From Frondihabitans australicus (GTDB lineage Bacteria > Actinomycetota > Actinomycetes > Actinomycetales > Microbacteriaceae), in assembly GCF_003634555.1 (NCBI RefSeq), contig NZ_RBKS01000001.1:62001-126000 (forward strand): a stretch of 64,000 bases of DNA. The letters are read 5' to 3'. This document shows positions 12,602 through 23,530 of this stretch, one piece after another. Within the stretch, counting starts at the first letter, position 1. Every line of letters begins with the position of its first letter. The notes below the pieces were generated by a model. That model was not told the DNA's origin. It did no database searches and saw only the letters and a list, made by a program, of their open reading frames with translations. The translations under genes were made by a program, and so were the position numbers.

Positions 12602-12659
12602 GCGACACAACGCGACACCTGCGACGTGCTGAGACGTCGCGGGTGTCGCGTTTTGTCGC
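12602..12659. repeat. Copy 1 of a 58-60 nt dyad repeat, likely bidirectional terminator
   Basis: A 26-base left arm (12602-12627) pairs with 12634-12659 across a 6-base loop with two mismatches. Key elements read CGACACAACGCGACACC on the left and GTGTCGCGTTTTGTCG on the right. The outer stem is an A tract paired with a T tract, so transcripts in either direction end in a U-rich 3' arm. It follows the stop of the hydrolase gene at 12672 (minus strand). A closely related copy is at 23471-23530. Confidence 0.75.
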
Positions 12660-12671
12660 GAGGGGGCAGCC

Positions 12672-13469
12672 TCAGGCGACGAGCGACTCCTGGAAGGTCC
12701 GGATGAGGTCGGTGACGTCGTCGACCGGCAGCAGCGACGACGCGTGATCCTGCCCGATCAGCTCGAAGAAGCTGCCGCGCGCCATGCGCCGTGCGGCCTC
12801 CTGCGACTGCCGGTAGCGGTCGGGGTCGTCGGTGCCGGCCAGCAGGAGCGTGGGGACCGTGATCGCGGCGGCCCCGTCGATGCCCAGCGGGGCCGCCGAC
12901 TCGATCCCCTCGAAGTAGGCCTCGAGCGCGACCGGGTCGTTCTGCCGGAACGCCAGCGCCGTCGCCGGGTCGATCTCACGGCCGCGGTGGTCGCCCCAAC
13001 GGCGGATGAACTCCTCCATGCCGCCCGTCTCGAGAGCCTCGCGCCAGGTGGGGAAGAACGTGGTGGCGATCCTGTCGGTCATCGCCTCGAACGAGCCGCC
13101 GATGGTCGTGAGGGTCAGGAGGCGAGAGGGTATGCCGGCCGCGATCCGCAGACCGATGCGGGCCCCGATCGAGTAGCCGACGTAGTGCGCAGCGGTGGCC
13201 CCGACCTCGTCGAGGACCCCGAGGACGTCGCCGATGAAGAGCGGCGGCTGGTAGGCCTCGGGGGCGTGCGGCTTGCCGCTGCGGCCGTGCCCACGCAGGT
13301 CGAGCGCGATCACGGTGAAGTCGCGCTCGAGGTCGCGGATGTACCCGAGGCCGCGCCAGGTGCCCTTCGACAGACCGGAGCCGTGCACCAGGATCAGAGG
13401 GTCGCCCGACCCGGAGACCTCGTACGCGATCTCCGTGCCGTCCAGGCCGTTCTGCACCGTGCCTCTCAT
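12672..13469 (-). CDS. Alpha/beta hydrolase
   Basis: A 265-residue alpha/beta-hydrolase fold protein. The oxyanion HGSG is at residues 29-32, the nucleophile elbow GYSIGA places Ser100 where GxSxG is expected, the acid is probably Asp in LLAGTDDPDR, and the catalytic His lies in GQDHASS near the C terminus. The segment ALDLRGHGRSGKP is typical of esterase and lactonase-like members. The ATG at 13469 is chosen because longer in-frame starts run into the divergent gene at 13569. Substrate unknown. Confidence 0.8.
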   Translation of the reverse strand: MRGTVQNGLDGTEIAYEVSGSGDPLILVHGSGLSKGTWRGLGYIRDLERDFTVIALDLRGHGRSGKPHAPEAYQPPLFIGDVLGVLDEVGATAAHYVGYSIGARIGLRIAAGIPSRLLTLTTIGGSFEAMTDRIATTFFPTWREALETGGMEEFIRRWGDHRGREIDPATALAFRQNDPVALEAYFEGIESAAPLGIDGAAAITVPTLLLAGTDDPDRYRQSQEAARRMARGSFFELIGQDHASSLLPVDDVTDLIRTFQESLVA

Positions 13470-13568
13470 GTGCCCAGTCTCTTCATAGGCCCAGTCTGGC
13501 AGTCGGCTGGGCGCCGTCGCCAACGGCGCCGTCGAGCGCGGCAGCACGAGCGGGGCCACACTGACGTC

Positions 13569-23100: not shown

Positions 23101-23464
23101 GGGAGCCACGCGCTTCGGGATCCTCGGCGCCGCCGCCAACGGCAACCCGGGGTCGGAGGGCACCTTCGTGATCACGTACACCGACGGGTCGACGCAGAGC
23201 ATCACGATGGGACTCACCGACTGGACGCTCAACGGAGGCGGTGCCACGACACCGGCCGACGGCAACACGATCGCGGCGACCACGCCGTACCGTGACACCT
23301 CGTCGGGCGGCCGCGACACGGTCAACGCCTACCTGTTCACCGCCGACGCGGCGCTGCAGGCGGGCAAGACGGTGCAGAGCGTCACGCTGCCGTCGACCGT
23401 GACCAACGGATCGCTGCACGTGTTCGCGTTCGCGGTCGGCACACCGGCCGCTGCGGCGAACTAG
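20126..23464 (+). CDS. Secreted GH92 family alpha-mannosidase
   Basis: An 1112-residue exported glycosidase. Residues 1-30 form a Sec signal (RPRR, hydrophobic core, AAQA cleavage). The GH92 catalytic region spans about residues 35-770: the N-terminal [22 protein letters not shown], the [12 protein letters not shown] and [16 protein letters not shown] motifs, and [21 protein letters not shown], which holds the paired aspartates of the calcium-dependent inverting mechanism. About residues 790-870 look like an immunoglobulin-type spacer domain and about 880-1110 like a galactose-binding-type carbohydrate module. GH92 enzymes trim alpha-1,2/1,3/1,6-mannans and fungal or plant N-glycans. LacI-type operators upstream indicate induction by a sugar. 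Confidence 0.9.
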   Translation: [1112 protein letters not shown]

Positions 23465-23470
23465 CCTCCC

Positions 23471-23530
23471 CGCGACAAAACGCGACAGCTGCGACGTCCT
23501 CAGGCGTCGCAGCTGTCGCTTTTTGTCGCG
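23471..23530. repeat. Copy 2 of the dyad repeat, between convergent genes
   Basis: 28-base arms 23471-23498 and 23503-23530 pair with two mismatches across the loop CTCA. Key segments are CGACAAAACGCGACAGC on the left and GCTGTCGCTTTTTGTCG on the right. It begins 7 bases after the mannosidase stop and ends 39 bases before the CitE-like stop, so a hairpin that terminates both ways fits. It closely matches the element at 12602-12659. Confidence 0.8.

Follow-up and report, generated by a model that had tools for sequence, protein, structure and literature searches.

A 58-bp palindromic repeat at gene ends in Frondihabitans australicus, probably a REPIN-like family without RAYT

Two long dyads of a common sequence plan lie just behind stop codons in a stretch of 64,000 nucleotides of the Frondihabitans australicus genome (the window; G000:C1:62001-126000), and they raise the question of whether this sequence is kept for ending transcripts or for being read or copied in its own right. 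An interpretation made from the letters of the window alone (the sequence-only reading) had proposed a probable family of bidirectional terminators, conserved in sequence and mobile or gene-converted like REP elements.

The two dyads and the family in the genome

Both dyads are built on a repeated unit of 58 bp and show the shared plan as proposed. Copy 1 (12602..12659, listed without strand as are all repeat features here) has the extent given in the sequence-only reading. It forms a 26-bp stem with two imperfect pairs; its 26-nt arms, 12602-12627 and 12634-12659, are 92% complementary, and its GCGAC boxes lie at 12602-12607, 12612-12617 and 12621-12626, followed by their mirror images. Copy 2 had been drawn as 60 nt (23471-23530), which is one flanking pair too many; the unit is 23472..23529, the core of longer 29-nt arms (23468-23496 and 23505-23533, 93% complementary). 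The central octamers, at family positions 26-33, are 12627..12634 in copy 1 and 23497..23504 in copy 2. Copy 1 is located between two minus-strand genes and is therefore behind one stop codon only: the 3' end of an alpha/beta hydrolase gene (12672..13802, minus strand) is 12 bp from it, and the 5' end of a small gene without a Pfam match (12234..12533, minus strand) is 68 bp past it. Copy 2 occupies a convergent junction, 7 bp behind the stop of a glycosyl hydrolase family 92 gene (20201..23464, plus strand), with the stop of the convergent gene (23570..24427, minus strand) 40 bp beyond. Both copies, read as RNA from either strand, are predicted to fold at -47 to -57 kcal/mol (z -8.4 to -10.9), a stability equalled by none of 200 shuffles. 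At the gathering score, Rfam has no match for the repeat in the window and reports an FMN riboswitch alone (RF00050, 59244-59394, plus strand, 83 bits).

The 58-bp palindrome is found at at least 76 distinct places in the single-contig genome of 4,036,723 bases, comprising 68 full elements around the listed seed arms, four more from a further search and four more from a covariance model, so that seed searches and model alike confirm the proposal of a sequence-conserved dyad family located at gene ends. The 15-base arm CGACANAACGCGACA, with one base free, has 65 forward and 66 reverse exact matches genome-wide, against none for the reversed control of the pattern. Because of these counts and of the z-scores of the RNA folds, the repeat is not due to chance. 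With one mismatch the arm has 73 and 77 matches. All 150 scored candidates of the covariance model in this genome match it, at 75 places on both strands, and the copy total is thus a lower bound; the copy at 1595603 is missing from the model's list. Each of the 150 matches listed covers model positions 1-58 in exactly 58 bases, and neither truncated copies nor length variants occur among them. The seed search is biased towards copies in which one outer arm or both are intact. A candidate at 2497793 was discarded as a chance match, having no mirror arm among the matches listed. The 18-base core has no match in the viral_contigs set, and sequence and text searches of one open-access library found no paper on the 58-bp repeat.

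Gene ends and the termination question

Gene contexts were assigned by a caller that had been trained on this DNA and seeded with bacterial amino-acid frequencies. The 68 copies are distributed over 40 convergent, 24 tandem and 4 divergent junctions, whereas all 435 junctions in the 459 kb examined, which are centred on the copies and hence not a random genome sample, comprise 101 convergent, 245 tandem and 89 divergent ones (Fisher p 3e-12). No copy is located inside a gene (0/68), and a gene 3' end adjoins 64 of the 68. Of the 104 neighbouring 3' ends, 95 are no more than 60 bp away, and the median distance is 24 bp. In 28 of the 40 copies at convergent junctions, no more than 40 nt remain on either side, which leaves scant room for another terminator. 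Among the four copies in divergent junctions, 3869362 is solid, with an ASCH-domain gene on one side and a prolyl oligopeptidase gene on the other, both with good Pfam matches. This small ASCH-domain gene is flanked by two copies, 3868797 and 3869362, which are 565 bp apart (L068:3998-4620), one of them divergent intergenic.

On each strand the hairpin is followed by TTTTGTCGC, and the mirrored arrangement is the expected look of a bidirectional intrinsic terminator. The very stable hairpin, together with the compensatory changes in the arms described below, makes a bidirectional role at transcript 3' ends or in termination plausible. The claim of bidirectional termination is retained in part: the hairpins and the A and T tracts suit both directions, but the T tract fails to show the expected preference. 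Of the 24 tandem copies, 18 have GTTTT or TTTTT intact on the transcribed side and 19 on the opposite side. The arm of copy 1 in the transcript of gene 12672-13802 reads GTTGT, not GTTTT. In convergent copies the T tract is intact in 63 of 80 arms; at the convergent site 1595603, AAA and TTT are exchanged between the arms and the U tract is lost. Selection for the T tract is thus unsupported. Judged from predicted folds and position, a function as a 3'-end hairpin is likely, while termination as the cause of the sequence conservation is unproven.

The explanation that we prefer, with a probability of roughly 0.6, is that these elements are lineage-specific 58-bp extragenic palindromes, REPIN-like but RAYT-free, which serve or are tolerated as bidirectional 3'-end hairpins. 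In transcripts from either side the two arms would pair as a long hairpin, ending the mRNA or protecting its 3' end, and copies would be tolerated or retained at sites that call for a gene end in both directions, i.e., at convergent junctions. The GCGAC boxes would be read by a putative sequence-specific factor, which would spread the unit or maintain it, and each species would possess its own palindrome dialect.

It is rather unlikely that the copies are just ordinary bidirectional intrinsic terminators, the sequence of which is kept only since the best hairpin-plus-T-tract solution has been copied and selected. The position at gene ends, the convergent excess and the very stable predicted hairpins would suit such an origin, as would the GC-rich stem flanked by A4 and T4 tracts in both arms, and a terminator consensus scan detects copy 2 on both strands. 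However, the GCGAC boxes are invariant beside varying paired spacers, although pairing alone would not need this, and the length is exactly 58 bp in all copies listed. The T tract, besides being kept no better on the transcribed side, is broken in copy 1 on the strand that counts, and the palindrome dialects of congeners, about equal in length, are by reading mostly without it.

Constant boxes, free centres and known repeat systems

The family follows the plan GCGACA-NAAC-GCGACA-NNN-GCGACG-N8-CGTCGC-NNN-TGTCGC-GTTN-TGTCGC. Over the 68 copies, 103 of 3,400 sites in the arms deviate from the consensus, compared with 248 of 544 sites in the central eight, where no two copies are identical and pairwise distances are those of independent draws. 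In the third box (GCGAC plus mirror), which is outside the search seed, a single site in 680 is changed, whereas the paired spacer beside it is changed at 46 of 408. Of 816 sites each, 7 are changed in the first box and 2 in the second, a constancy partly built in by the seed. Two-sided changes in spacer pairs number 34, where shuffling gives 10.7 and none of 500 shuffles reaches the observed count; the excess is lost when the partner position is slid. A separate count over 25 pairs, Watson-Crick only, gives 26 two-sided changes against 4.4. These compensated changes indicate that arm pairing matters. The sequence of the boxes matters besides pairing: the GCGAC boxes are far stricter than the equally paired spacers, which argues that the sequence itself is read or copied. 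Simple duplication of whole units, or their gene conversion as suggested in the sequence-only reading, is hard to reconcile with 68 central octamers that all differ. No target-site duplication of 4-10 bp is present directly at the ends of any of the 68 copies, nor do the two flanks of a copy pair beyond what follows from a general trend of C-rich left and G-rich right flanks.

The same boxes might be recognised in double-helical DNA as the site of a sequence-specific protein (a roadblock, nucleoid or chromosome-organising factor), a reading that we regard as quite unlikely. Six GCGAC boxes per element, at near-helical spacings of 10 and 9 bp and mirrored at a fixed distance, would fit such a site, as would box conservation and a fixed length with a free centre; in a genome of another genus (G122), arrays of the same motif are spaced by mostly 12-13 nt from unit to unit and by 18 nt where the orientation turns. 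On the other hand, the compensatory changes in the spacers make arm pairing important, which would be needless for a duplex site, and the placement directly behind stop codons would be left unexplained.

The preferred reading as REPIN-like palindromes draws on a comparison with known repeats. REPINs, as far as they are described in the consulted part of one report (PMC3116915), have invariant ends at a fixed distance, a less conserved spacer and compensatory changes. Sequence types of REPs and REPINs are species-specific, and convergent and tandem gene ends are favoured, according to the consulted portions of two papers (PMC3116915, PMC3733652). Like these repeats, the 58-bp family is short, extragenic, palindromic and present in many copies, with inverted conserved ends at a fixed distance, a free spacer and compensatory changes; the family and its relatives are lineage-specific in type and placed at gene ends, and tandem arrays of 82-83 bp are found in G087. 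Unlike a REPIN with its RAYT, the unit is one continuous pair of 25/26-bp arms around an 8-nt centre, and unlike REPs and REPINs its consensus is without GTAG and its central octamers are all different.

RAYT transposases are the usual explanation of REP-like repeats. A profile search for RAYT (Y1_Tnp, PF01797), which detects matches in 5 of 14 control genomes, gave none in eight genomes, this one and seven others, so that the REP-associated tyrosine transposase expected by the sequence-only reading finds no counterpart in them. The likeness to REPs therefore holds for plan and gene-end position but not for the transposase. CGTC-tagged REPs are a further parallel, being palindromic and, in the extract of PMC3733652 consulted, without a known dedicated transposase; there they have stems of 8-9 bp and loops of 4-5 nt within 20-40 bp. 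The arms of the 58-bp family likewise start with CGTC when read outwards from the centre, but the family's stem measures 25/26 bp and its whole unit 58 bp. As to attC sites, which are alike in size and position, the ends of the family read GCGACA...TGTCGC and the attC core is not seen.

A MITE moved by an ordinary DDE transposase is very improbable. The high copy number and the absence from congeners would agree with one, and so would clustering: at 72 of the 76 places, 16 pairs of neighbouring copies are less than 5 kb apart against 6.0 expected (the maximum of 5,000 simulations being also 16), and the largest copy-free gap is 510 kb (p 0.008). However, a target-site duplication of 4 bp or more is found in 0 of 68 copies, and the unit has no internal sequence, its centres all being different. 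The centres of neighbouring copies are not strikingly similar (mean distance 4.5 of 8), and no transposase is found near or between neighbouring copies among ten proteins and the ASCH gene. The clustering may result from local copying with a new centre or from a regional excess of suitable junctions. Inverted pairs of DNA uptake signals form terminator hairpins in Neisseria and Pasteurellaceae (PMC1852404, the part consulted), and the 58-bp family resembles them as sequence-conserved inverted pairs at gene ends. A DNA uptake sequence dialect arranged as such hairpins is nevertheless hardly credible, even though uptake dialects also differ between species, given tens of copies with longer arms (about 150 arms against a thousand or more), no solitary unit or arm among the seed matches listed, and 0 of 68 copies within genes.

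Palindrome dialects in related genomes

The distribution of the family outside this genome was compared over one genome per species, with G150, G004, G087, G151, G152 and G153 as congeners. The exact arm CGACANAACGCGACA is absent in the six congeners among the matches listed. Within two mismatches, the arm occurs 10-37 times per congener against 7-17 for the reversed control and is above the control in 6/6, G153 being highest with 37 against 10. The covariance model has no match in G150, G004, G087, G152 and G153. In G151 it has ten weaker matches (E down to 3e-7), which are possibly a distant dialect; in the part of G151 examined, only a weak palindrome of different sequence is seen. At the orthologous pgm and DEAD-helicase junctions of the six congeners there is no copy of the 58-bp family; other hairpins are present there in several congeners, with none by eye at the helicase in G087 and G153.

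Two matches to the covariance model are found in G122, which belongs to a distant genus. The 18-base core with one mismatch, sought in 259 genomes of the bacterial family, has more than one match only in G000 (62+65) and G122 (12+24), ten further genomes having a single match each. The motif is present in G122 as arrays of degenerate 19-bp units (L183-L191), mostly 4-11 per cluster with spacers of mostly 12-13 nt, which invert their orientation about an 18-nt centre and are located at gene ends, 7 of 12 clusters being between convergent genes. One 54-bp palindrome in the orientation of G000 is also present (L188:5372-5425). In the genome_contigs set, from which the own or near genomes are possibly absent, the exact arm has no match and the arm with free spacers has seven scattered single matches in MAGs of other groups.

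Congeners have long palindromes of their own. In about 200 kb from each of the six, 59 palindromes of 44 nt or longer are located in classifiable junctions, 44 of these convergent, 12 tandem and 3 divergent, with none within genes, and their sequences are largely species-specific. The type CGAGACTCCA...TGGAGTCTCG, for which 53-63 bp were permitted, is found at 14 places in G004 and 59 in G087 and at none in the other 118 genomes of the draw; it is 57 or 58 bp long in all 14 G004 places and in all 33 of the 59 G087 places listed. Its centres vary freely, and adjacent G087 copies repeat at 82-83 bp. Ten stretches of each genome place it in 4 tandem and 2 convergent junctions in G087, and in 3 convergent and 1 divergent in G004. 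The arms are not all paired, since 6 of 18 exact arms in G087 and 3 of 11 in G004 are unpaired. At G087:C1:1890264-1890486 and elsewhere, 57-bp CGAGACTCCAC elements lie in tandem with an 83-bp period. The type CGAGANNGCC...GGCNNTCTCG, for which 42-70 bp were permitted, occurs at 56 places in seven genomes and measures 55-57 bp in 46 of them; the remaining ten places include at least one clear palindrome (50 bp, G153).

Beyond the preferred reading of the family itself, we tentatively put forward, as possible but less probable, a RAYT-independent system in this bacterial family, in which a putative factor specific for sequence and spacing would spread or maintain gene-end palindromes of 55-58 bp, fill or ignore their centre and co-evolve with the dialect of the species. 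Such a factor would bind either the duplex or the hairpin of one strand. If this is true, the hairpins at gene ends are recast by every species in a sequence of its own. A genus with per-species gene-end dialects of near-constant length, and with no RAYT in the genomes tested, would be a clean case for asking which other machinery multiplies REP-like repeats, and whether these act as selfish DNA, as terminators or in both ways. Ready test constructs are at hand in the 68 aligned copies: their boxes are invariant and their centres free, and natural variants have swapped A/T tracts or a broken T tract.

The genome of F. australicus contains a second family (family B, the 58-bp family being A), CCTCCCGAAAACGACTC...GAGTCGTTTTCGGGAGG, with seven copies in the DNA examined (G000 576792, 642478, 936597, 1581560, 1640004, 2450090 and 3783779). 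Their extents are 56-60 bp, with one of 70, and four of the seven are 6-24 bp from a family-A copy; their centre is partly conserved, unlike that of family A. The window holds other inverted repeats. One at 41424-41618 is long and imperfect, with 97-nt arms that are 71% complementary, and its core is a 71-nt palindrome (41486-41556) unlike families A and B. At 63586-63687, a convergent junction carries a short hairpin and an inverted AT-rich stretch (GGGCTTTTATGAGAAAAGCC...), in a style unlike that of the 58-bp family.
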